Source: Agapetus fuscipes (lineage: Eukaryota; Arthropoda; Insecta; Trichoptera; Glossosomatidae). Taken from it: DNA of 64,000 nt. Positions 6,125 to 56,335 of the stretch are shown here, in pieces. The position numbers and the translations under genes are program-made. How positions within the stretch are numbered: position 1 is the stretch's first letter; each line of letters starts with the position of its first letter. Under the pieces are notes generated by a model, which searched no databases, was not told the DNA's origin, and worked only from the letters and a program-made list of their open reading frames with translations. Location: NCBI GenBank assembly GCA_951799405.1, contig OX637337.1:310001-374000 (forward strand), read 5' to 3'.

Positions 6125-9100
6125 TCAGTCGTTGTACCAGTCCAGGAAGAGCAGCGAGGCGGACATCACGAGCAGGAAGAAGAGCAGCCAGGTGCGCAGG
6201 CCGGCGTTGCGCTGTATGGCTTGCTTGAGCTGCTGGTTGGCGTCGCGCACATTCTCCGTGGCTGACAGCACCGTGCCCGCTATGCGGTCTATGTCTCCCT
6301 CTTGCTGGAGGACCTGCATAACATATCATTTCATAATATTAGGATGATTCATCTGGTGAGCACTGTTTGTCTGTGACTTCAAGTGTCTTATATAGATGTA
6401 TATTGTATGGAAAGCACGTTATGAGAAATGAGAAATATCCACTCCCACATCTCATACAGGGATGAGTTGAGAGAAGCCAGAGAAGAGTGCCAGGGCGAAG
6501 GAGATCATCTTGGCTTGAGAACCTCAGACAGTGGTTTGACAGAGGAAGGAGATCATCTTGGCTTGAGAACCTCAGACAGTGGTTTGACAGAGAAAGGAGA
6601 TCATCTTGGCTTGAGAACCTCAGACAGTGGTTTGACAGAGGAAGGAGATCATCTTGGCTTGAGAACCTCAGACAGTGGTTTGACAGAGGAAGGAGATCAT
6701 CTTGGCTTGAGAACCTCAGACAGTGGTTTGACAGAGGAAGGAGATCATCTTGGCTTGAGAACCTCAGACAGTGGTTTGACAGAGGAAGGAGATCATCTTG
6801 GCTTGAGAACCTCAGACAGTGGTTTGACAGAGGAAGGAGATCATCTTGGCTTGAGAACCTCAGACAGTGGTTTGACAGAGGAAGGAGATCATCTTGGCTT
6901 GAGAACCTCAGACAGTGGTTTGACAGAGGAACAAGATCCTTCTTTCGTGCAGCAATATCTTCATAAAGACCTGTCACAGAAGAATGGGCCTTTTTTAAAG
7001 GTTCACTTCGCCAATGTCACCCCTGCTTCAGGGAAGGTCGGCAAGAGTTGCAGGGCTTATGTTCATTTGAGATTGGGTTTTTTTATATTGTAGGTCCCCA
7101 TGCGGCATGTGTAAGTGCGAAATTATGCATGTCTGCTTGTGGGAATGCATTTAATAATTAATATGAATCTCAAATGATACATATCTTTGCAGCTTAGATT
7201 TAGATCTTAGGGGAAAAGCCGAAGGCAAATATTAGGTCGTAGTGCAGTTCTTAGACAAGCTTTCTTTTAACCTTACTGGATAGTCTTCCTGCTTTATATG
7301 GTGGGCACATTTGTTTTGTGGCAATCCCCTGCAAAAGCAACAGGAATAATTTTCCTGTGTCCAAAAAGCTCGGATAAAACAAACATCTTAGCTGTGTTCC
7401 AGTAGATTCCTCCCTGCTCAATTGTTTGAATGGTTCATTTAATCAGACACTAAGTACTAAAATGTTCAATTTTATTATACATATAGTTTGGTTCTAACTG
7501 CCAAGGAAAAATATGGCCGCAGTCCCTAAAAAATGTTTTTACATGTTAAGAACTGTTTCAAACACTGAAGGTGGCAACGCAACTAACCTACACAGATAAT
7601 GTAACCTCTTGTAGCGTTCTCGCCGAAGAGTGGAATCTATTTATTTTTTACAGTTAAGGGGGCCGGCTTTATGCCAACCACAAGTTGAAACGGGATTTTG
7701 GAAATTTAAAAAGCAAGTTAATATGTACCTTGCACGGTAAATGACGCTTTGTACCAAAATATATGTGGACGTAGGGGGAGCTGCATAACAAAAATACTCT
7801 GTTGGTTTTTATGAAAGATCTGATATTTTTTTCTCACATAAGTAACTACTTTTTCTCAGTTTGGCTACCATACTACGTCTTTTCTCAGTTTGGCTACCAT
7901 ACTACGTCTTTTCTCAGTTTGGCTACCATACTACGTCTTTTCTCAGTTTGGCTACCATACTACGTCTTTTCTCAGTTTGGCTACCATACTACGTCTTTTT
8001 TAAATAAATTATTCAATAATTGCCCTAAGATAATATGTACCTGTAGAATTATTTACAGACAAAATAATAATTATTGTTTATAAAGTTTTAAACTTTCACT
8101 AACACTTTCATGGTCGGTAATATACTGAGTTGTTTTTGTGGTTTTTCGGATTAGACCATGGTCTACACATCTTGTAGACAATGGTCGAACCTGAAAAACC
8201 ACAACAACAATTAATTATTGTTTATATTCAGTCATTACACAGTGATACTATATAAGAGAAGAGAAGAAAGTGATGAATGCTGAAGAGATATCCAGCTGGA
8301 AAAAAGAAGGTGCATCTGCGGAGGTACAGGACACCCCTAGTGGAACTACAGTTCCAGTTCCAGCTCTCCTTAGTGATTTACCTTCTCCGTGAAGGCCTCC
8401 TGCAGGTCAGCGATGCGCAGCACCTTGGACTCTATCTGCCGCACTTCCTCGGACAGGCTGTTGAGCTCCTCATACAGGAGCAAGTTCTCTGACTCAAACA
8501 CCTGCAGCTCCTCAGGGGACAGCTGCTTGTCCGGGGGCGCCGCCATATCCTGCTCCACCGCCAGGGCGGAGCGGCTGAGGGCGGGGGTGGGGGCAGCAGG
8601 GCTTCTCCTGGGAGAGGCGGCAGCGGGCTCTAGGCGGGATAGCTGCCGCAGCTCCAGGGCGCGCTTCACACGAGCAGCTTTCTGCTCAGCGTGAAGTCCA
8701 CACACAGCCTGGTACACAATGAAAAGAATGCACCTTTAAAATTCATTTAATGCAGGAACTTTAAAAAAATACATCTTCTGCAATTAATCTTATTTGTGTT
8801 TTTCAATACATGTTTAATGTTTTCTTTGACGTTCCGAGTCAGACGCTAGTGCTATAAAAATAAATTGTACAGTGGACTGCACATGACTATAGCATTAAAT
8901 ACGGTCATGTTCAGGTCATACCAATTTTCATAAAAAAATATTTAGTTTGTAATATTAATAGGGATGGGCCGAACCTCGTTTTACATGCGGTTTAACCGAA
9001 TTTCGGCAGCTTGAACCAAACTTCGGTATTCGGCCGAATTTCTGAAAGAAAAAATGATCTTGATGAGAACTGTGATGACACAGTTCTCATCAAGATCATC

Positions 9101-12100: not shown

Positions 12101-15100
12101 GTAAATTAAAAATTAGATTCACGTAATATTAATTCAGATTCTTATAGTTTGAAATCGGATTCAAAAAAATATTCGCCATTTTTATTGCTACAAAAATGCA
12201 ATTCGTGACGCGTTCATACATTATTATCATAATTATCGCTTTGGAATCGAAGTGCGGGTTAATTCTTTAATTGCCTTGTAAGTATACCTATCTCTTGCAT
12301 TTTAGGTACATTTGAATTAAGCCCGCGGTATAAGTAACTACCTAGGTACTAGCATTGTTTACTTTCTTTGTTTACATTATTTGTTTACATTTTGATAAAA
12401 TTATTATAACCTTCTTCTTTCTTTGCTACTTCAATTAATAAGGACTTGTACGTACGGGATTAGTAAAAATTATTATTAATTTATCAAATTTAATTTATTA
12501 AAGCCAAATTTAAAACATGACGTCAGAACGCGAGAAACGGGCATTTCAACGACGTAAGGAGCGCCTCCAGAATGAGATAGAGACGTACTTGGAACGGGCA
12601 CAATGCATTTTCGATACCATTAATTCAATTCATTTGGGAGAAATTTATTTGCGTAAATTTAAAGTGCACGCGGCAGGCATTGACAACTGGCGTAAAGAAT
12701 TTTTATTACTGGTGAAAGAAAAAAATGATTTAATTGCAGAAAGTGAGGAAGATGAAGCAACAGATAATAATATAATTCTTTCATTTGAAGACTTATACGC
12801 TGAAATTAAATATACTTACGAGAATTTAAAAGACACAACAAAATCCTCAAGTGCAAATGATATTCCTTTAAAAAGGAGCATCCAACTACCACGATTAGAG
12901 CTGTGTGCCTTCAACGGAGATGTAAACAATTGGCCGGTGTTTTATGAAAATTTTAAATCTATGGTCCATGAGAATGACAGTCTAACGGAAGGTGAAAAGA
13001 TTCAATATTTAGTTGGAAAACTGGTAGGAAAAGCTCAAAGCATTTGCCAAGGTTTATTGCCAACTGCTCAAAATTATACAATTTTATGGAATTCGTTGGT
13101 CAAGAAATACAACGATAAGCGCGTTCTGGCAACAACTTATCTAGAGAAATTGTTAAATATTCCTGCAGTAAAGGAACCATCTGCCTCAAACTTGGAGGAC
13201 TTTATTGATCTATTTTCAGGTTTAACTGCTGCAATCAAACAGTTGAACATGGAGAATCTAGAAGACTTTATATTCATACACATTGCGTGTAAGAAACTTG
13301 ACATGGATACGATTAAGGCTTTTGAAGTTTCTATACAAGATTCTTCAGACTCAGTAGATTCAATAAAATTTGTGGAATTCATTAGAAATTACTCGCGAAT
13401 ACTACAGCGCGCAAACGGAAGTAGAAGCAGTAAAATTAACAATCAAATTAACGCGATGCCGCGCAAGCCCTCAGCTTCCCAGAAAAACGTTAGGGCATTT
13501 GTGACAGTTAATACTGACAAATGTTTGTTGTGCGGAGATAACAACCACTCAAAGTTGTACCAGTGTCCGAAATACACTATCCTGGACGCTCGGGAAAGGT
13601 ACAATTTTATAAAATCAAAGAAATTATGTGTCAATTGTCTAAGTACGATGCATAATCTCAAGAATTGTAAATCAAAGGGAAGATGCAGCGTTTGTAATCG
13701 ATCCCACCATACTAGCCTGCATTTCAACTTGAATTTGCAAGCCGCGGCCGAAGAAAAGGCGGAGCCCCTAGCGCTTTGTGCTATGGGCCCTAATTCTAGT
13801 GAGGTAGAATCTACGGTTTTACTAGGAACTGTTTGTTGTGTAATCTTAGACAAGCGGGGTCAAAGACACACTATTCGCGCTTTATTAGACAGTGCTTCAC
13901 AGAGAGACATAATAACGGCCTCCTGTTGTCGAGAACTTCATCTTGATGTAAAGACGACGCGAGACAAAGTTGTTTCAGGAATAGGGGATATTGTCAACCC
14001 TATCAAGGGAGTGACAACAATTACCCTTCTTTCGAGAGTTGAGAAATCGGTCAATTTTAAACTATCGCCTTTGGTGGTTAATCAAATAACTGATAAAATA
14101 CCCGTCGCCAACATTAATATTGAAAATTTAGAATATTTAAAATCATTACGTTTGGCTGATGAAAAATATTTTATTCCCGGAAAAATTGACATGATTCTGG
14201 GTGCAGATGTATTCTCCCGTGTGATAAAACACAACACTATCTCACGAAATTTAGGCGAGCCAGTTGCACTGGATACCCTATTTGGGTATGTGATACTAGG
14301 GAAAGTTCCAGTGCTACCGGCAATCAAAACAGATTATTGTTTCTTTTCAACAATTGAAATTGAAATGAAAAATATCTTGGAGTTGGAGGACGTACCGGAC
14401 GTCTCCACTCCACAAATCGAGGAGCTGGTATGTGAAGAGAAATATACCAACACCACCACGAGAGACAAGACTGGTAGATTTTCCGTAATGCTGCCTTTCA
14501 AGACCGATCCGGGGCAGCTTGGTGATTCTCAGAGAGCGGCAGAGCGGAGATTTTACGCGTTGGAAAGGAAACTGCTTTCAAACTCTTCTGTAAAATTGGA
14601 ATACGACCTTATTTTCAAAAATTATATACAAGAAGGGTATTTAAATCCTGTAAATATAAATTCGGATCAATGCTTGAGCTTGCAATACATAGCACCGCAT
14701 CATGCAGTGATACGTGAAAATAAATCCACAACTAAGGTTCGCGCAGTAATAGATGCTAGTATGAAAACTACATCAGGATTATCGCTGAATGATGTTCTAC
14801 ATACGGGTAGAAATCTTCAAAATGATCTATTTAAAATAATATTACACTTTCGCTTGTTTCCAGTTGCTCTAAGCGCTGACATACGTAAAATGTATATGCA
14901 AATTCTGGTAAATAAAGAGCATAGATGCTATCAGAGAGTTTTATATCGGTTTGATAAAAATGATCCACTTCAGCTTTTTGAATTTACACGCGTACCATTT
15001 GGCTTAAAGTGCAGCCCATACCTTGCAATGCGTACCGTTCGTCGTTTAATTGATGATGAGCGAACACGTTTTCCATTAGCGGCACTTGTAGCAGAGAGAG

Positions 15101-18100
15101 ATATTTACATGGATGATTTGGTTTCTAGCTGTTTAAATGATGAAGAGGCTATCGCACTTTCAAACCAATTGATTGAATTATTTCTTGCGGGCGGTTTTGA
15201 ATTGGTGAAGTTCTCGAGTAATTCACCATCAGTCATGGGAGGCATTCCCTCAGCTTGTCGCATTTCTGAAGCTGTGGAGTTCAGTTCAGAAGATCAATGT
15301 ACCATCCTTGGTTTGCATTGGTTGCCTGGAAAGGATGTTTTTACCTTTAGTGTCACTAACAAATTTCGTAAATGTACAAAACGAAATATTCTGTCGACAA
15401 TTGCGCGCTTCTGGGATTTGATGGGGTTTGTCGCACCCGTGATTGTAACAGCTAAATTAATGATTAAATTTCTCTGGGAACATAAAATCGATTGGGACGA
15501 TTGTCCTCCTCAGAGTATAATTTCAACTTGGGAAAATTATGAATCGGAACTCCCACTCCTTCAAAGTATTCAGCTGCCACGGCATACAGGTGTAACGCAG
15601 GAGTCGATTATATCCCTATTGGGATTCGCGGACGCAAGTGAGAGAGCATATGGAGCGGTGATATATATTCATGTATATAATCCTCCAAGTAAACGCGGAG
15701 AAATAAGTTTAGCTTGTGCAAAGTCGCGAGTAGCTCCAAGTCGTACAATATCTTTAGCAAGACTTGAATTATCGGGAATATTGATATTGTCAAAATTAAT
15801 GCGTGTAGTCATTGATACATATTCAACTCGCTGCCAAATTAATAATGTATACGCCTTTTCTGATAGTACAGTGGCACTCGCTTGGGTTCATTCACACCCA
15901 TCCCGCTGGCAGACTTTCATCGCGAATAGAGTAACTATAATTCAGGATAATATACCTCCAAGTCAGTTTTATCATATTGCCGGGAAAGACAATCCCGCGG
16001 ATTGTCTCTCACGCGGCCTAACTCCCGCACAATTAATTGACCACCCGCTCTGGTTTAAAGGCCCTGCCTTCGCGCGCTCACCGATTGAAGAATGGAATTT
16101 TGGTAAATTTGATCCAAATACTATTGAAAACCCGCCGGAACAAAAAATAAAAGTTATGACTGTAATGGATAACTTACCCAAGCAACCAACTTTATTAGGT
16201 TCACTCGCTGAACGAATCTCTTCCTGGAGTAAATTGTTAAGAGTTGTTATTTACATATTTCGTTTTATAAAAAGATTGTCATCAAATTTTGAAGTCTCTC
16301 ACCTACGGTTTGCAGAAATCGTAGTTATAAAAGACTTACAAAATCATCATTTTTCGAACGAAATTAAAAAACGCGAAAGCCGGTAAAGTCTTATCTCCTG
16401 CATTTCGTAAGCTTAATGCCTTTATCGACGCCGATGGGTTGTTACGAGTAGGAGGGAGACTTGTAAACGCTGACTTAGCTTATGACAGTAAACATCCAAT
16501 ACTTTTACCAGGTCGCGGTCATATTTTGAATTTAATCATTGATTACTATCATAGAAAATTCTTGCATTCCGGACCTCAGTTACTGATGTCCCTTTTGCGA
16601 CAAAATTTCTGGATTTTGTCGGCTAGAAATATTGTGCGTAAACGCGTCCAATTATGTAATACTTGTTATAAGGTTAATCCAAAATCACGCTTCCCCCTCA
16701 TGGGGGATTTACCTGCCTGTCGGGTAAATGAAGGTAAGGCATTTTTCCACTGTGGCATAGACTACGCGGGCCCCTTAAGTGTGATTCCTTATAGAAAAAG
16801 AGGTGTGCACAAAATTAAAGCATACATTTGTGTGTTTGTGTGCTTGATCACGAAAGCGGTTCATATCGAACTCGCATCAGATCTAAGCACGGAAACATTT
16901 ATTAACGCTCTTAAGCGATTTTTGTCGCGACGCGGGCCGGTAAAAATAATGTACTCAGACTGTGGGACAAACTTCATTGGTGCAAAATCTCACCTCGATG
17001 CTCTCTATGGTCTCCTGGAGTCTGAAGATTTTCAAAATAAGTTCGACAGGGAACTAAGAGACCATCGGATAGATTGGAAGTTCAATCCCCCATCCGCCCC
17101 GCATTTCGGTGGAATTTGGGAGAGTAACGTGCGGAGTATCAAACTCCATCTGAATCGAGTAATTGGTAAACAATTATTGACATTCGAGGAAATGTCTACA
17201 GTACTTGCGCAAATTGAAGCAATTTTAAACTCCAGACCGCTTTCATGTTTGAGTGCCGATCCATCCGAACCTATTGCTCTAACCCCCGCACATTTTCTCA
17301 CATTGACTCCTCTAAAGTCACTTCCGGCGACAGATACCTCCTCTAGAGACATTAGTTTACTGTCTCGTAAACAGTATGTGGACCATTTAGTTCAGTCTTT
17401 CTGGAAACGGTGGAAGGTGGAGTACCTTCACACTCTCCAAACGCGTCAGAAATGGAACACGGAAACAGAGCCAATCAAGATTGGATCTGTTGTCTTGTTA
17501 AAAACTGAAGGTAGTGCACCTCTTAATTGGCCACTAGGAGTTATTGAGGATGTCTTTCCGGGAGCGGACGGTATAGCTAGAGTAGTTAATGTCCGGACGA
17601 AAACTGGAACTTATAGGCGTCCAGTTGTCAAGGTTTGTCCGTTGCCAAATCAATAACATTACAAAATAATATACAGTCCACTCGCTAAATTAAGTAGATT
17701 TAAGTTATAATAATAAACAAATAAATAAATAAATCATTGTTTTGAAAGGACTACGTCCTCTCAAGCTGGGGGGCATGTTTGGGCGAACTGTTAGGTAGGT
17801 TTGTTATGGGTAGCTGGCCATAAAATCCTTGTCCTTGTGCCTATAATCTGACCTATCCGATTTGCCCAATCACCTGTCTCCAGCCAGTACTTCTACATAC
17901 GCGGCCTTGGATAGACGTGTTCATCGCAGTGTACACCGCGCGCGAACGAAGGAGAAACCACACACAAAAACGCGACCAGTGCTCCGCGAAAGAGGCATCC
18001 ATTGGAGATAAGGTGAGTCCAGACCATTTGATTCCGTGATTCCTTCCCCCTTGCTCCATTGGTTGGCTGCCTAGACAGATTTGTTGGGCAGTTCGTCCGA

Positions 18101-45324: not shown

Positions 45325-46395
45325 GTGATAGTGTCTCATCTACCTACTCGCTGTCCTCTGGGGTTCCACAGGGCTCTATGCTGGGTCTGATTCTTTTTAT
45401 ATTGTATACTGCTGACATTGAGAGTATTGTTGAAAAATGGGGCCTCATCTCACATTCATATGCAGATGACTGGCAAATATACTTTCACTGTTAGCCAGAC
45501 ATGGCTGAGGACCTCAGTTGTAGGGTCTCTGGATGTATCTCGGAGGTCGGTGAGTGGATGGTGAACAATGGCCTAATCCTGAACATGGATAAGACAGAGA
45601 TACTCTGGGCAGCCACATCTAGGCGCGACCATCTATTGGTTAATGGGGTAGCACTCTCCATAGGAGGTAAGCTGATCTAGCCTTCCGATTCGGTGAGACT
45701 TCTAGGAATCTTACTGGATCGGAACCTGACATTGGAAAGGCAAATAGATGCCAAAATAGCTTCCTCCTTTTTTTCACTGCGCCAAATAAAGGCAATTAGA
45801 AAGTGTCTTCCGTCAGATGCGGTTAAGACCCTGGTGAGTGCGTTTGTGATGTCTCGGATTGAATATTGCTCAACGCTTTATAGTGGTCAGCCAAAGAAGC
45901 ATTTCAACCGCTTTCAATCTGTGCTGAATTCAGCAGCGAGGCTCATATTCGGGATATCCAAATTCGCTCACATCACTCCGCTGTTAAAAAAACTACATTG
46001 GCTTCGTTTCCCGGAGAGGGTGGTCTACCGTGTTTGTCTGATGGTATATAAAGACATCGATGGCTTGGCTCCACCTTATCTGACTGACATGATTTCGCCT
46101 GTTGAAATGGGTGTGATGAGGCAGACACTTAGATCCGCGGGCGATGGTGCAATCAATTTGGTTCAACCACACCGTCAGATCCGTACAAATTTTGGAGACC
46201 GTGCTTTCCGTGTTGCGGGTCCGGTGGAGTGGAACAGACTGCCACCCGGAGTGAAGAACTCCAAATCTATGGGTATATTTCGCGGAGCTCTCAAGACGCA
46301 CCTTTTCAAAAAGTCTTATCCGTGATCGGAGAGGGCCCTTGAGGTGTGACACACACAAAAACGGCGCTCTCTTATCATGTGCAATTTAAAATAAA
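45325..46395 (+). mobile_element. 5'-truncated CR1-like LINE
   Basis: It starts within the RT (SSGVPQGSMLG, then HSYADDW, the active-site box with ADD) and runs to the ORF end (HLFKKSYP, stop). The 3' UTR contains cacaaaaacggcgctctctt. A few stops before 45690 show it is dead; 45693-46325 remains open for 210 aa. A (TA)n tract (46408-46445) follows. Confidence 0.9.
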
Positions 46396-48252: not shown

Positions 48253-49731
48253 ATGAAGATGATCAAGGCCATACGTAGATTATATAAACATCAATCAATA
48301 ATGAAAGACTGGCGAAGAAAGTATAGGTTGCAAGAATACATAGATGGATGTCGTGGTAGACGAAGACCGAGAAAGGTTTTTTTGAAAAATTTTTGGAAAA
48401 ATTTTTTTATATCGAAAATTATTGAGAAGGCCGTTGTTTGGCAACTCACTCAGCACATGGAGCGAGGCGGATATCTGTCTAAGTTTCAGTCAGCATATAG
48501 AAAAGCTCATTCCACTGAGACTGCCTTACTTCGCATTGTGAATGATGTGATAGCTGCGGTTGGGGACGGTGCTCTTGCCATGGTGGCAGTACTTGACATG
48601 AGCGCTGCCTTCGACACTGTTGATCACAGTATACTCATCACTAAGCTTGATAGGTTGTACGGAGTCCGAGGAGGAGTATCTAAATTGCTATCTTCATATC
48701 TGAAAGGCAGATGTCAGACTGTGGATGTTGATGGTGAGTCATCAGGTATGCCCATGGACTGTGGTGTGCCTCAGGGATCTGTGCTCGGGCCTTTACTTTT
48801 TACCCTGTACACAAATGATCTTGAGAGCACTGTACTGATGAACGGCACCAGCTACTATTCTTATGCTGATGATATTCTACTTTGTCGTTTCTGTCAGCCA
48901 TCTATGACAGATGCCTGTAGTCTTGAGATGGTCCGGTGCATTGAAGTGGTGGCTGAGTGGATGGCAAGGTGTCGCCTTAGAATGAATCCAGACAAGACAG
49001 AATTCATCTGGATGTCGTCTCCTGGTAGGAAACACTTGCTTGGCTCTTCACCAATTAAAGTAATGGGCCTGGATGTATATCCATCTAGCTCAATTAAGTT
49101 TCTTGGGGTCCATCTTGACAACACTCTCTCCATGAGTACGCAAATAAGCTCGACTGTGAGCTCCTGTTTTTTTCACCTGAGGCAGTTGAGATGGGTCAGA
49201 AACTGTTTGACATCCGAAGCTGCTAAGATTCTCATTGCGTCCTTTGTTGTGTCGAGACTGGATTATTGCAATGGTCTGTTCTGGGGTCTTCCAAGGTTTC
49301 AGCAGTCTAGACTGCAATCCGTCTTTAATGCTGCAGCCAAATTACTTTTAGGAGGACGAAAAACTGACCATGTCTCTCCTCTGTTGCGGCGCCTTCATTG
49401 GCTGCGAGTCCCAGAGAGGATTGAGTACAAAATATGTGTTTCTGTTTTTAATGCCCTCAGAGGAGTTGCCCCATCGTACTTGTGTGAATTGTGCAGAGTC
49501 GACCAGATAGGTGGAAAACGATGCACTCTTCGTTCTGCACAGAGTGACGCCGTAAACAGGCTTCAACTGCCTCTTCGACGGAACAGAACTGGTTTCGGAG
49601 ACAGGGCTTTTAGTTCGGCTGGTCCATCCTGCTGGAATAGTCTACCTCTGGAGTTGAGAACAGAGACCAGTGTTGGCAGTTTCAGGAAGTTGCTTAAGAC
49701 ACATTTGTTTAACAGAAGCTTCAACACATAA
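48253..49731 (+). CDS. CR1-like LINE reverse transcriptase fused in frame to RTE-like LINE scrap
   Basis: Of this 492-aa frame, the first 40 or so residues (to RRRPRKV) belong to the host RTE-like LINE. The rest is a CR1/jockey-type RT: FQSAYRKAHSTETALLRI, VLDMSAAFDTVDH (first Asp), GVPQGSVLGPLLFTLYTND, YADD active site near residue 205, LRMNPDKTEF, LDYCNGLFWG and HWLRVPERIEYK, ending HLFNRSFNT. The endonuclease domain is missing (5' truncation). The RT part is open throughout, hence young. The predicted N-terminus is an insertion artefact. Confidence 0.9.
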   Translation: MKMIKAIRRLYKHQSIMKDWRRKYRLQEYIDGCRGRRRPRKVFLKNFWKNFFISKIIEKAVVWQLTQHMERGGYLSKFQSAYRKAHSTETALLRIVNDVIAAVGDGALAMVAVLDMSAAFDTVDHSILITKLDRLYGVRGGVSKLLSSYLKGRCQTVDVDGESSGMPMDCGVPQGSVLGPLLFTLYTNDLESTVLMNGTSYYSYADDILLCRFCQPSMTDACSLEMVRCIEVVAEWMARCRLRMNPDKTEFIWMSSPGRKHLLGSSPIKVMGLDVYPSSSIKFLGVHLDNTLSMSTQISSTVSSCFFHLRQLRWVRNCLTSEAAKILIASFVVSRLDYCNGLFWGLPRFQQSRLQSVFNAAAKLLLGGRKTDHVSPLLRRLHWLRVPERIEYKICVSVFNALRGVAPSYLCELCRVDQIGGKRCTLRSAQSDAVNRLQLPLRRNRTGFGDRAFSSAGPSCWNSLPLELRTETSVGSFRKLLKTHLFNRSFNT

Positions 49732-49802: not shown

Positions 49803-50130
49803 ATTAAAGGTATGGATGGACCAAATTTCCGAAATAGCAAATGAATGGGAAATCCAAAGTCATAACAAAAGGAGAGCTTGTATAAAAAAAGTTATGACTC
49901 TGGATGAAATGAAAGAAGTATGCAAGGACCGAAAAAAATGGCGGTTGAACTGTAATGCTGGCATTTAAGGCTGAGGCTTTAAAAAAAAATCACTTTTTTT
50001 TAGAATATGTTTTGTAGGTTTTAATTTTTACTTACTGTTTAATTTTTTAGGCCCGGTAGTTTCATCGTTAGCATACGCGCCTAATAGCATAAAAATGACT
50101 TACTATAGCTTAAAATCTTAAAAACGGTAT

Positions 50131-50604
50131 TGTTATGTAAATATAAATATTGAAATAAGTATGGGTAGTTATAGTTATAAGAGTCCTCATAGGTATAGGT
50201 AGGTAAGATCGATAATTATGTATAAGTGTAGAATTCTCTAGGCTAAGTAGGTATTTGTTATAATTATAGGAATACTGTATTGCATTGGTAGGTAGGATTT
50301 TGGTTGTATCTCTAGGTAGTACGTGAAGCGTCGAGAAGTAATAATTACTCTGGAACCGTCTGGCGACTTTAGTTCTGGATCATACTGCTCTGAAGAGTAT
50401 AAAGGTGCGAATGGCCTGCAGAGCGGGCCAGTATCATAGCGACTAACAAAGACATCGAAGCCATCTGATCAGTGAACCGAAACCAAGTAGAATAATCGAG
50501 AAAGTAGTGTGAAAATAAATATTGTAACAGTGTAAAATAAATAACTATTGAAGAAGACCTGTGTATTTTTAATTTGAAGACAATTGAACCCTAATTTCGT
50601 AACA
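50131..50604 (+). repeat. 5' LTR of the macro-Gag element
   Basis: 474 bp, TG...CA, followed by attggcgtcaggtgcgg. The leader 50605-51280 is AT-rich, contains a long A-run at 50909-50940 and is non-coding. Confidence 0.93.
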
Positions 50605-50907
50605 ATTGGCGTCAGGTGCGGAATTGTCAAGAAAAATTAAGATCTTCTGTCTAAAAATAAATAAAATAAATTAAATAGTGTTAAAATGAACTTTATTCAA
50701 ATTGAACTTTGTGTGAACTGACTTTTGTGAAAACAAGTGTTTAAATAAATTTTTGTTAAAAGAAAAGACGCAAAAGCAAGTTGCTTATAAATTCTGGAAC
50801 ATCATATGGAACATAATTCTGGACATAATTCTGGACATAACATAATGACTATTTTACCGCATTGAGAAAGTCATCAAATTGGACCATAGTTTTTATTATT
50901 GTGTGTG

Positions 50908-50944
<37 letters not shown>

Positions 50945-51280
50945 GAAAAATATTACAAAAGAACGTTCCAGATTCATCGAGAAAAAGTTTTTGAATAACT
51001 ATCCTTTGTTTACAAGTGTGTGAATGTACATTAAGTACCTACCTGTGTGTTTGAAAGACTTGAGACGAAATAAATAATTATGTACTATCAGACATTATTA
51101 TGTTAAAAATATTGGGGATTTAAAAATAAATATTAAAAGACAGTACCTACCAATCAGTGTAATCAGATAAATTATTATTTTGCTAAAGTACGTATTCAAA
51201 ACAGCTATATATATAAAACTCAAAACTTGTATTAAATAAATTTAAAAATATTTTTGTTTTGAAGTAAATTTTGAAAAAAA

Positions 51281-53659
51281 ATGGCAACCAAAGTGAACAT
51301 CAAGGACCTCAAAGTCACTGAGCTTAAAAATGAGCTTCTGGAGAGGGACCTGGAGACCTCAGGAGGGAAGGCGGCCTTACAGGCACGCCTCATGGAGGCC
51401 TTAGAACAGTCAGGCGAAGACCCGGCATATTTTGTCATGGCGTCTGGAGGGGACCGCGCCTTGGACGAGCTAAACCTCAGCATCACCGGAAACTTCACTT
51501 CCATGGAGGAAAAGCTGAAAGGGGAGATGGCTGACAACGCCAAGACCCTGAAAGTGGAGATGGCTGACAACGCCAAGACCCTGGAGGAGAAGATGGCTGA
51601 CAACGCCAGGACCCTGGAGGAGAAAATGGCTGACAATTCCAAGACCCTGAGGGAAGACCTGAAGGCGGAGATGGCTGACAACGCCAGGACCCTGAAGGCG
51701 GAGATAGCGGATAGTCTCACAACCCTGAAAGGAGAAATAGAGGAGAAGATGACAACCAACCTCTCGGCCCTGAAGGGGGAAATGGAGACTCGGATGTCAA
51801 ACCTGGAAGACCGTCTGCGTGCCGAGCTGGCTGACAAGTGCCAGATGGAGTCCACCAGAATCTCCCCCAAAGGCGGCCTTCACGACGAGACCGACCAGGG
51901 ATGCTCAACTCCAACCAGGATCACAAGAGGGGATGATGACCCTTCCCTAGCCAAGCACAACCTCCCAACCTTCGACGGGAAGACGTCGTGGGAGGAATAC
52001 TTGACCCTCTTTGAGACGGCTGCCATGATGGGAGCCTGGAGCCAGCAGAAGAAGGCTTCGGTTCTCAGCCTGTCGCTCCGAGGAGACGCTCTCAGGGTTC
52101 TGCAGGCCATACCCCTGGACAACCGTGGTGACTTTGGGCAGCTGAAGCAGCGCTTGGATATGCGCTATGGCCACAAGTGCCTGGGGCAGCTGTACAAGTC
52201 ACAGCTGAACACAAGGGTGCAGAAGCCCAACGAGAGCCTCCAGGAGTTTGAGATGGACATCGTCCACCTAGTACGAGACGCTTACCCGACATTCCCTGAT
52301 GACATCTGCGAGAGCTTGGCAGTGGACAAGTTCCTGAACGGATTGAGAGAATGGGAGACGCAGCAAGCAGTGAAGCTGGCTCTTCCGAAGACGTTGAACG
52401 AGGCGCTAAGCCGAGCTCTCGAATTTGAGGCTGTCAAACAGTCCATCAGGGGCCACGCCAGGGTTTGTGCAATCAAGGCAGAGGAGGTCAAACTACCTAC
52501 AACCGAGGAAATAATAGAAAAAGTGCTGCAGCAACTTGAGCCAACGAGACAGAAGGCGCACTGCTGGACGTGTGGCCAGCAAGGACACCTGAGCGCGAGG
52601 TGCCCAAAGTCTCAAGGACCGGAGAAATTGGAAGACGACCGCAAGGATGTAGAGACCACCATGGAGATGAACAAACGGCTGAGGAAACAGCTCCAGGATG
52701 CCGAGAGAAAGGTCAAAGTCATGGAGACGGAGAACAGGCAGCTGACGAAGAACTTGGCCAGCAGTGAAAGGGTCCGGCGAACAGCGGAGGCCGAGAGGGA
52801 CGAGTTGCACGAGACTGTGCTGAGCCTGGAGAGACAGAACAAGGGGCTTAAGACTAAGCTCCAGCAGCTGGAAGCTGGGCAGGGGCCCAGGACGAAGGAC
52901 ACCATCGCCAACCTGGAGTCCAAGAACAGCAACACCAAGGAGGCGGGAGCTCGAATGAAGGATAACCACCGGCCAACTCAAAGAGCAAAGTGGTCAAACA
53001 ATGACCAGCCCGCCCAGAGAGTACAAAAATGCGTCGCAACCAAAGAAGCGCCCCTGTTTGAGACGTTCTGGAGCAAGGTGCAAGAGGGACAGAAGATTCG
53101 CCATGGGGTGACCACAGAAGTCCACAAGGACTTATTTGAGGTCACTGGGGACCACACACTGGCATGCAGTGTACCGGAAGATCTAGATATGTCTAGAGGA
53201 ATTGCACGGGTCTTCCGATACAAATTCGGAGAACCGCAACCCTCGAGCAGCCCGCAAGGAAGAGCTCTGAGACTACCGAAGGGGCGTCAACAAGCATACT
53301 GCCTGGTTGTCCCGGATTCCAGCAACCTGGAAGAGGACTACAAGGCATTGTGGGACGGCCTTGTTGAGCTGCGTGACTACATGTTGGAGGATCAGCAGGC
53401 GCGTCTGGCAATACCGAAGATGGGTGGCGGCCGCGCTAATCGAGACTGGCGGATAATCCGGAGTATGATTGAAGCAGTGTTCTCGGGAGTCGGCATCAGC
53501 GTCATGGTGTGCTGCGAGCAAGCGCAGCCGAGAGCCAGTGGGGAGAAATCCGTGGACTGCCACTTCTTCCTGACCACAGGGTGTCGACGTGGATCAGCAT
53601 GCCCCTACCTACACAGAGTCAAGACTGTTCCGGGACGAAACAGTCTAGGTGGGGGGTAG
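51281..53659 (+). CDS. Gag-like protein: SAP, coiled coils, Gag, CCHC, macro domain, CCCH finger
   Basis: This 792-aa ORF fills the LTR element. Residues 6-43 (LKVTELKNELLERDLETSGG...) read as a SAP DNA-binding motif. Residues 75-185 are about 11-residue repeats (EMADNAKTLK type), probably coiled coil. Residues 224-395 (LPTFDGKTSWEEYLTLFE and on) look like a Ty3/gypsy-type Gag. CCHC knuckle CWTCGQQGHLSARC lies near 428, then a heptad-rich coiled coil (450-535). Residues about 605-745 resemble a TARG1-type macro domain: KDLFEVTGDHTLACSV, RGIARVFRYKFG, AYCLVVP, PKMGGGRANRDW, MIEAVF. A CCCH finger (C-x7-C-x5-C-x3-H, about 761-778) closes it. The usual TARG1 catalytic Lys and Asp do not appear conserved, so binding without hydrolysis is possible. 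The start is the first ATG in a long open frame, in aaaaaaATGG context. Confidence 0.85.
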   Translation: MATKVNIKDLKVTELKNELLERDLETSGGKAALQARLMEALEQSGEDPAYFVMASGGDRALDELNLSITGNFTSMEEKLKGEMADNAKTLKVEMADNAKTLEEKMADNARTLEEKMADNSKTLREDLKAEMADNARTLKAEIADSLTTLKGEIEEKMTTNLSALKGEMETRMSNLEDRLRAELADKCQMESTRISPKGGLHDETDQGCSTPTRITRGDDDPSLAKHNLPTFDGKTSWEEYLTLFETAAMMGAWSQQKKASVLSLSLRGDALRVLQAIPLDNRGDFGQLKQRLDMRYGHKCLGQLYKSQLNTRVQKPNESLQEFEMDIVHLVRDAYPTFPDDICESLAVDKFLNGLREWETQQAVKLALPKTLNEALSRALEFEAVKQSIRGHARVCAIKAEEVKLPTTEEIIEKVLQQLEPTRQKAHCWTCGQQGHLSARCPKSQGPEKLEDDRKDVETTMEMNKRLRKQLQDAERKVKVMETENRQLTKNLASSERVRRTAEAERDELHETVLSLERQNKGLKTKLQQLEAGQGPRTKDTIANLESKNSNTKEAGARMKDNHRPTQRAKWSNNDQPAQRVQKCVATKEAPLFETFWSKVQEGQKIRHGVTTEVHKDLFEVTGDHTLACSVPEDLDMSRGIARVFRYKFGEPQPSSSPQGRALRLPKGRQQAYCLVVPDSSNLEEDYKALWDGLVELRDYMLEDQQARLAIPKMGGGRANRDWRIIRSMIEAVFSGVGISVMVCCEQAQPRASGEKSVDCHFFLTTGCRRGSACPYLHRVKTVPGRNSLGGG

Positions 53660-54133
53660 TGTTATGTAAATATAAATATTGAAATATGTATGGGTAGTTA
53701 TAGTTATAAGAGTCCTCATAGGTATAGGTAGGTAAGATCGATAATTATGTATAAGTGTAGAATTCTCTAGGCTAAGTAGGTATTTGTTATAATTATAGGA
53801 ATACTGTATTGCATTGGTAGGTAGGATTTTGGTTGTATCTCTAGGTAGTACGTGAAGCGTCGAGAAGTAATAATTACTCTGGAACCGTCTGGCGACTTTA
53901 GTTCTGGATCATACTGCTCTGAAGAGTATAAAGGTGCGAATGGCCTGCAGAGCGGGCCAGTATCATAGCGACTAACAAAGACATCGAAGCCATCTGATCA
54001 GTGAACCGAAACCAAGTAGAATAATCGAGAAAGTAGTGTGAAAATAAATATTGTAACAGTGTAAAATAAATAACTATTGAAGAAGACCTGTGTATTTTTA
54101 ATTTGAAGACAATTGAACCCTAATTTCGTAACA
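53660..54133 (+). repeat. 3' LTR of the macro-Gag element
   Basis: 474 bp, one visible mismatch to the 5' LTR. The ORF stop codon (53657-53659) abuts the LTR start. Confidence 0.93.
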
Positions 54134-55170
54134 GTATTTTGAAATATGCTATAGCAAGAAAATAGTCTAATAGCAACGATAGTTTTGCTAGCCAATTTTG
54201 CGGAGCATACGTTTTATGCTTTAGCTTATTCCAATATGGCGTCTTTTCTCGTCTGTTATTTACAGCGGCTATGTTGTTTTGAGTCGAATTTCCTCAATTA
54301 TTACCTTAGAAAACACACAATATTTACTTCAATTTTGTCAAGGAAAGCAACGGTTCAGATGACGAAAGAATTGCTGATTATATTTACATGTGCAAATCAA
54401 AAATATTTTGTCTCGGAATATTTGGTAGGAAAGCGGAAGAATTCACTGGGCACAACGTTTGAAATTATTGGCAAGCAAATACAACACAGTCTATAAAATC
54501 CGATTTAAAATGTCTTACGCACTTATAATTTAAAATCATATTATAACATTAATCTACGGCGTCATGCCATCATTTTTGATGCACTGCAGGCGGAACGCCA
54601 ATATGGCATGTGACAGATGGAAAAAACAACCATAGACAACAATTTAATGAATTCGTGGCTGCTTACCATATTATTTATGTGGCCAAATGCAGTATTTGAG
54701 GTTTTTTTTTTAATTTTTCAAATTTTGTCACGATGCATCAATGGAATTACTTCGGGTATCTTCGGTATATACTAGAGATAGCCTATAGGCAAAATGGGAA
54801 TCAAAATACTGTTTTGGCGTTACTATAGCATATCTCGGGCCATGTCTCGGGCATAAAATATGCTATATAAACTACTTCAGCTAAAAATGTGAAACTACCG
54901 GGCTTAGTGTTTGTTTGTTTTATATACTTAAATGTAATTAATTGTTTGTATTCCTTGACTTATAGGTTGGTATGAGGCTGACCACCCATACTGTATAAAA
55001 TGGTTCCCTTTGCCAATGTCTTCCCTGTTTCAGGGAAGGTCGGCAAAAGTTGCAGGGCGTATGTTCATTTAAGATTGGGTTTTTATATTGTAGGTCCACA
55101 TGCGGCATGTGTTAGCGCGAACTTATACATGTCTGCTTGTTGGAATGCGTGTAATATGAATCTTAAATGA

Positions 55171-55389: not shown

Positions 55390-56190
55390 ATCCGGGAAAA
55401 ATATTACTTTTACATATGCTTATTATGCTTATCAAGAGTAGGCCATACTTTACATTTTCCCCTTTTCGAAAGTAAAGTACGAATTTAGTTTAAGAACCAT
55501 AAGGAATTTTTCAATTAAAAAAACACAACTCTTGACTTTGCTACAAGCATTAGAAAGGTTTCTGTACACTGGCAACACCGAATATAACTTACACACACTC
55601 GTATATAAGGTTGGTACGTTTATTCGACAGTGAAATGCTACCGTTAAGATAGGTTTGTTTACTTAGGATGTTTTTAAGATAATAAACTCAGATATCAATA
55701 ACCGTAATAAAGTGCGTAGACGTCAATGTATAAGTAATATGACACACACATGTTGCCCAATTCCAGCTTGGTGAAATGTACTTATAGGTGGATTACGAGT
55801 ATCATTCCATGGTTCATGTGATGTATTAAAATGAATTTCTAATGTAAATAAATGCTCTTTCTATTTTATCAGCGGCGTCGCTATCTAACTGCTAGACTGC
55901 ACTATGCAGGGAGTCAATAAAAGGATTACTTTGCATCCTTTGAGATTGGAGTTTTTTTTTAATTACGAAGCTGTGTTAATAGTATATGCGTGCTAACCTA
56001 GGTGTATCGACGAGCTATGATTTGATGTGGATTTACACCATACTTTATTTATTGAAATGTTAATAATCATAAATCGTGTATTGAAAACGAAACAATAGGT
56101 ACTAATACTCTTATAAATTATTTTGTGTCGGCTCGACAGCAATTCTCGAAGTTTTCCTTTAACCTTGAGCCTCCTTCGGCCTATGTATGT
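55390..56190. other. Unassigned intergenic sequence
   Basis: No gene or mobile element was recognised. AT-rich with only short frames. Confidence 0.4.
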
Positions 56191-56197
56191 ACAGCTT

Positions 56198-56335
56198 GGC
56201 ACCCTACCAGTGGCACCATCGTGGCACCCTACCAGTGGCACCATCGTGGCACCCTACCAGTGGCACCATCGTGGCACCCTACAAGTGGCACCATCGTGTC
56301 ACCCTAACAGTGGCACCCTATCAGTGACACCATCG
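56198..56335. repeat. 25-bp minisatellite, about 5 copies
   Basis: Unit ggcaccctaccagtggcacc plus atcgt, period 25, degenerating at the right end. Confidence 0.88.

Follow-up and report, generated by a model that had tools for sequence, protein, structure and literature searches.

A macro-CCCH module found behind a Ty3/gypsy integrase and within the Gag of a related gag-only element of Agapetus fuscipes

Introduction

TR-GAG elements are non-autonomous long terminal repeat (LTR) elements of plants that carry gag only. Here we describe an element of comparable build in a 64,000-nucleotide stretch of the Agapetus fuscipes genome (contig OX637337.1, positions 310,001 to 374,000; this whole stretch is referred to as the window). 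The window element shares with TR-GAG the LTRs, the gag-only content and a presumed mobilisation in trans, and differs from it in its host, which is probably an animal, and in a Gag that is fused to a Pol-derived tail consisting of a macro domain and a CCCH finger. The closest described counterpart for the source of this tail comes from chromoviruses, in which, according to PMC3605345, integrase carries a chromodomain at its C-terminus. A gag-pol relative of the window element, located at C15 in the same genome, has the same order of protease (PR), reverse transcriptase (RT), RNase H (RH) and integrase (IN) as the chromoviruses, with an extra domain behind integrase and before the 3′ LTR, but a degenerate macro domain and a CCCH finger take the place of the chromodomain. 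Among Pfam matches up to E 0.01, the Pol pieces of the C15 element contained no chromodomain, which sets it apart from the chromoviruses proper.

The macro domain in question resembles that of TARG1/OARD1 (C6orf130). Passages of PMC6397177 identify K84 of TARG1 as the nucleophile, assign hydrolysis to D125, place S35 and T83 in the lining of the distal ribose pocket, and provide a TARG1 sequence pattern. The element domain differs from TARG1 in having P/A or R/A at positions 84/125 and in being fused to integrase or to Gag. Viral or mobile genomes likewise code for the macro domains of alphaviruses, coronaviruses and phages. In the passages found of a survey covering 21,191 viral proteomes (PMC9503650), retroviruses were mentioned only for 2H domains and no retroelement macro domain appeared. 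Titles, abstract openings and term counts of the open-licence literature yielded no description of a macro domain belonging to an LTR retrotransposon. A domain fused behind a Ty3/gypsy integrase is known, and a macro domain at this place is new within the literature searched.

Pol ends in the macro-CCCH block

The starting observation of the initial annotation, a Gag open reading frame (ORF) bearing a macro domain between two 474-bp LTRs, was confirmed (Table 1). Its proposal that this Gag had captured the macro domain did not hold, as the macro-CCCH block turned out to be a C-terminal module of Pol that directly follows integrase. A pol-bearing relative with the same LTR, which the annotation had suggested looking for, was found at C15, where protein P0010 as the query against the same genome (78 scored places among 2150 candidates, with frames of 1152–1872 aa at 13) detected a 1872-aa frame. 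Upstream of this frame, the LTR agreed with that of the window element at 96.4% over 364 columns and the leader at 93.1% over 683 columns. The C15 element has an LTR on both sides and, between them, the Ty3/gypsy order of protease, RT, RNase H and integrase: one piece of its Pol (L109) contains an aspartic protease, RT and RNase H, and a second piece (L112) continues with integrase, macro domain, CCCH finger, stop codon and LTR. The integrase in L112, composed of H2C2, rve and p58_C/SH3, ends at residue 497 of the frame; with distances derived as offsets from the CCCH positions, the block homologous to residues 573–792 of the window protein starts about 4 residues past integrase and the macro domain about 43 residues past it. 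The gag-pol copies at C33 and C1 showed the same ending as C15. A second lineage at C28 (pieces L108 and L113) presented integrase, macro domain and CCCH finger in the same order and with conserved spacing of the finger, and the N-terminal part of its macro domain matched TARG1 at E 2.3e-13; the element at C20 (L120) was of the same kind.

The window element has lost PR-RT-RH-IN, in whose place it has an unrelated coiled coil, and its Gag continues in frame into the macro-CCCH tail. The ORF contained no pol domain, and a second ORF of pol size was absent between the LTRs. The macro-CCCH block entered the Gag frame upon loss of PR-RT-RH-IN, and on its anatomy and parentage taken jointly the window element is almost certainly a young, non-autonomous element derived from a Ty3/gypsy retrotransposon. 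Comparison of the window element with the C15 Pol revealed 33 differences in 156 bases over residues 573–624 and none in 504 bases over residues 625–792; the corresponding counts were 33/156 and 1/504 against C33, and 33/156 and 0/504 against C1. Judged from these bases, the edge between the two parts means a recent exchange between the derivative and the gag-pol element. Such an exchange could arise if RNAs of both elements were packaged together and reverse transcriptase switched template between them. The shared LTR and the edge also point to mobilisation of the derivative in trans, most likely by the C15-type gag-pol family.

Eighteen Gag relatives from other sources, one of them named Homalodisca liturata, were 45–62% identical to the window protein over the part spanning the capsid and nucleocapsid (NC). 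The capsid was common to all of them and a Pfam SAP domain was listed in 14. Seventeen ended shortly after the CCHC knuckle, and P0010 continued into an integrase-type stretch. In this comparison of Gag proteins the macro block followed NC in none of the 18. This absence would suit a direct capture of a host macro domain by the Gag of the window element for use in its capsid, a scenario to which we give almost no credence: in a gag-pol element that shares the LTR the block forms the tail of Pol, and the element domain is no closer to human OARD1 or to two OARD1-like exons of this genome than to bacterial rows. The idea that protein P0001 represented another Gag lineage, separated by a recombination edge, was rejected, as it starts with the end of integrase and represents a Pol C-terminus, differing from the C15 Pol at 2 of 220 residues. 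A search with residues 590–792 of the window protein returned no match, viral contigs contained no relative of either the macro-CCCH part or the capsid part, and plasmid DNA gave no match; the phage and plasmid proteins that did match were stand-alone genes of macro-domain size.

The macro domain retains the fold and lacks the catalytic pair

The assignment of a TARG1-type macro domain to the ORF was upheld by both sequence and fold matches, and the structural check that had been advised for this region returned macro domains, including those of alphaviruses and coronaviruses. The fold match is not independent of the sequence match because the input alignment of the structure model held TARG1-type bacterial rows. 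Positions 84 and 125 (human numbering) are K and D in the human protein and in all 55 bacterial and phage rows (4 others were left out beforehand on account of stops, unknown residues or frame, and one plasmid record is counted twice). They are replaced by P/A in the window element, C15, C33 and C1, and by R/A in C28, as the annotation had suspected when it described the catalytic Lys/Asp pair as missing. The TARG1 pattern TKx(30,35)Px[IL]GxGxD was present in the human protein and in 39/55 bacterial and phage rows and in no row of the window or C28 lineages; this pattern is strict, and the two OARD1-like exons read, which keep Lys and Asp, also fail it. Judged by Lys84, Asp125 and the pattern together, neither the window lineage nor the C28 lineage qualifies as a TARG1/OARD1 hydrolase.

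Both lineages retained D20, D37, G43, P118, G121 and W129. Asp20 belongs to the adenosine pocket. Attached behind integrase and devoid of its catalytic residues, the macro domain is best read as a binding module; more specifically, our analysis tentatively favors a non-catalytic reader of ADP-ribose, with confidence short of even.

Probable purifying selection on the domain in Pol

The macro domains of C15 and C28 were 52% identical over 138 codons, with nonsynonymous divergence (dN) of 0.43, synonymous divergence (dS) of about 3, which is saturated, and a dN/dS ratio (omega) of 0.145 (bootstrap 0.086–0.349). The integrases of the same two elements were 77% identical over 457 codons, again with saturated synonymous sites. 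This one comparison of two lineages suggests that purifying selection kept the macro domain in Pol, a result that concerns Pol and not the derivative.

The derivative itself is abundant. In the genome (618 Mb, 148 contigs) the 792-aa protein had at least 57 scored places, in line with the expectation that more copies would be found; 45 of them aligned in one piece, whereas variation of the coiled-coil repeats split the alignment of the other 12 into two pieces, and since 57 of 2447 candidates were scored the copy number is a lower bound. A stop was seen in one of the 57. All 48 copies that were read had an open frame of 766–819 aa with the same C-terminus. The two LTRs could be compared in 24 of 28 copies and differed at no position in 12, at one in 10, at two in one and at four in one. 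A 4-bp target site duplication (TSD) flanked 44/48 copies and had the form NTAN in every case (ATAT 15, GTAT 13, ATAC 8, TTAT 4, ATAG 2, ATAA 1, CTAT 1), revealing a clear preference for TA-centred insertion sites; these counts were obtained with limits allowing for varying LTR starts, as fixed limits missed 6/28. Across 28 copies (26 to 28 per part) the tail of the derivative was far more uniform than the capsid, the leader or the LTR. Segregating fourfold sites numbered 19/91 in residues 191–420 and 7/137 in residues 448–792 (Fisher p 4e-4), which agrees with the tail of the derivative having arisen once and recently.

A reader tethered to integrase, and its rivals

In the gag-pol parent, a macro domain behind integrase could tether the integration complex to ADP-ribosylated chromatin proteins or to ADP-ribosylated DNA or DNA ends, and this reader would then match the chromodomain of chromoviruses in both place and role. 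The derivative would carry the same reader into the particle as part of Gag. The combination of the derivative origin described above with a reader tethered to integrase is in our judgement the best explanation as a whole, and a moderately probable one. If it is true, ADP-ribosylation would join histone methylation, read by chromodomains, as a mark that the integrase of a retrotransposon recognizes, and the macro domains already known in RNA viruses and phages would become part of the toolkit of LTR retrotransposons. The window element is in addition an example of a gag-only derivative in recent sequence exchange with a gag-pol relative.

Several observations weigh against this explanation. 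The gag of the C15 element agreed with that of the window element at 94.8% over the first 96 bp, the part that was compared, and kinship of the two Gags beyond it is assumed. In C26, one of the six integrase-macro places read (C15, C33, C1, C28, C20 and C26), the frame ends where the macro domain begins. The preference for TA-centred sites can be explained without any reader. S35 and T83 are lost in the window lineage, which makes even ADP-ribose binding conjectural there and warns that the ligand may have changed. The copies of the derivative were those most similar to the window protein, a choice that biases their intactness upwards. Omega between the window macro domain and that of the C15 Pol was 0.48 (0.24–0.97), and the ratio of nonsynonymous to synonymous diversity (piN/piS) in the macro block of the derivative was 0.52, with an interval of 0.10–1.92 (28 copies) that makes it indistinguishable from 1; the capsid in the same number of copies gave 0.14.

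The piN/piS of the macro block bears on the idea that the macro-CCCH block of the derivative is a passive passenger, kept because its neighbours, the polypurine tract and the 3′ LTR, are needed for reverse transcription. The block abuts both of these features, its variants among the 28 copies were mostly singletons, and its last 504 bases are those of the C15 Pol, so that recombination could refresh it without selection. The frame stayed open through the block in all 48 copies, which speaks against a mere passenger, though these copies are young and were picked by protein similarity. We regard the passenger explanation as a serious possibility that falls somewhat behind the reading of the domain as an ADP-ribose reader.

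The domain might alternatively blunt a PARP-type defence by masking or stripping ADP-ribose on proteins or nucleic acids of the element. Passages of PMC9503650 present viral macro domains as thought to act on host macromolecular ADP-ribosylation, and in a third arrangement of the domain in this genome, described below, the TARG1 pattern and the two catalytic residues are intact. Loss of these two residues in the window and C28 lineages makes stripping unlikely there and would still permit masking; overall, we consider a role in defence rather improbable.

About equally improbable is a function of the macro domain and CCCH finger as a tail that binds nucleic acid, for RNA packaging or for contact between integrase and DNA, with no role for ADP-ribose. 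CCCH fingers commonly bind RNA, the pocket is eroded in the element rows, and a structure of the Chikungunya macro domain with RNA is available (3gpq). However, Asp20 and the glycines at 43 and 121 were kept in both lineages.

A third arrangement and the source of the domain

Human OARD1 as the query against the same genome gave 150 scored places among 995 candidates. By hand count, 73 of them lay in open frames of at least 1000 aa, including 37 in 1422-aa frames that presumably represent Pol in a frame of its own. Three places were exon-like (C31 twice and C52), with 43–45% identity to the human protein, and presumably belong to host genes; the two exons read (L117 at C31 and L118 at C52) keep Lys and Asp, have a short tandem repeat nearby and show no special kinship to the macro domain of the element.

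Eight further rows, 35% identical, form a separate group (C21, C6, C143 twice, C14, C147, C12 and C30). It was represented by the one that was read, L119 (G000:C21:11274000-11275100), in which the macro domain is located between RNase H and the zinc-binding domain of integrase. This domain matched TARG1 (PDB) at E 5.1e-22, and the RNase H matched Ty3 Gag-Pol at E 1.4e-21. Lys, Asp and the TARG1 pattern were all intact, the sequence features of a TARG1-type hydrolase, and make the L119 type a candidate ADP-ribose eraser. With more than 100 scored reader-type places and eight catalytic-type rows, of which one was read in context, this genome offers a natural test of both proposed roles.

An origin of the domain from a host gene, as put forward in the initial annotation, found no more support than one from bacteria. 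The window macro domain tied in BLAST between human OARD1 (28.9% identity, 60.8 bits) and the best bacterial row (29.1%, 60.8 bits), and the tree left the window, C15 and C20 rows on a long branch. All four element rows, including C21, fell on one side of a branch (93/84) in this tree of 45 rows, from which 17 bacterial rows had been thinned beforehand and for which the program warned of a possible false joining of long branches. That the domain occurs in two arrangements, each within its own pol context, suggests that it was acquired twice; a single acquisition would also fit the tree, which groups the four element rows together.

A broader picture can be drawn, in which the Ty3/gypsy elements of this genome would use a catalytic macro domain between RNase H and integrase as an eraser and a non-catalytic macro-CCCH module behind integrase to guide integration, possibly after two acquisitions, with ADP-ribosylation serving as a targeting mark or a battleground and with derivatives exchanging their tails with their parents. 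We regard this picture, in all its parts, as unlikely enough to be held only as a speculative proposal.

Anatomy of the window element and its surroundings

The ORF of the window element encodes a retroviral-type Gag with a two-lobe helical capsid and a CCHC knuckle. The capsid matched Arc and PNMA2 at E 3.6e-4, with TM-scores of the top three matches of only 0.29–0.31 (query) and 0.38–0.49 (target). The second coiled coil had no DNA match in the gag-pol pieces compared and only generic protein matches (myosin and a designed protein); it is possibly a captured fragment of a coiled-coil gene. The search for a primer tRNA was confined to the window, where no tRNA genes were found.

Table 1 Features of the window element in window coordinates
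Feature	Position	Strand	Remarks
Target site duplication GTAT	left 50127..50130, right 54134-54137		4 bp
5′ LTR	50131..50604	+	474 bp; 473/474 identical to 3′ LTR
Likely primer-binding site	50605..50626	+	Placed by position directly after 5′ LTR only
5′ leader	50605..51280	+	Common to the C15 gag-pol element
Gag-macro fusion ORF	51281..53659	+	792 aa
SAP domain	51299..51406	+	Residues 7-42
Coiled coil 1	51431..51850	+	11-residue repeats; length differs among copies
Capsid domain	51953..52540	+	Residues about 225-420
CCHC knuckle (NC)	52562..52609	+	Residues 428-443; match just under cut-off
Coiled coil 2	52610..52996	+	Residues about 444-572; occupies the place of PR-RT-RH-IN
Pol-derived tail	52997..53656	+	Residues 573-792; homologous to the Pol C-terminus of the gag-pol element
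TARG1-type macro domain	53114..53509	+	Residues 612-743; K84/D125 (human numbers) replaced by P/A
Recombination edge	about 53152		Near residue 624/625; from base comparison with C15 Pol
CCCH finger	53546..53614	+	C-x7-C-x5-C-x3-H; residues 756-778; match just under cut-off
Polypurine tract	53647..53656	+	Overlaps ORF end; assigned from sequence
3′ LTR	53660..54133	+	474 bp

Other repeats and elements were noted elsewhere in the window, which also contained two Rfam matches, both below their family thresholds. Two long ORFs of 1289 and 405 aa at 12517-17656 resemble, on reading their sequence, a gag-pol element of the Bel/Pao type. An ORF with a reverse transcriptase (Pfam RVT_1) at 48253-49731 probably belongs to a non-LTR element, and a fragment of similar appearance lies upstream of it at 45693-46325. 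A repeated segment built of GDHLGLRTSDSGLTEE units with overlapping ORFs on both strands occupies 6339-7093, and a 25-bp tandem repeat is located at 56167-56316.

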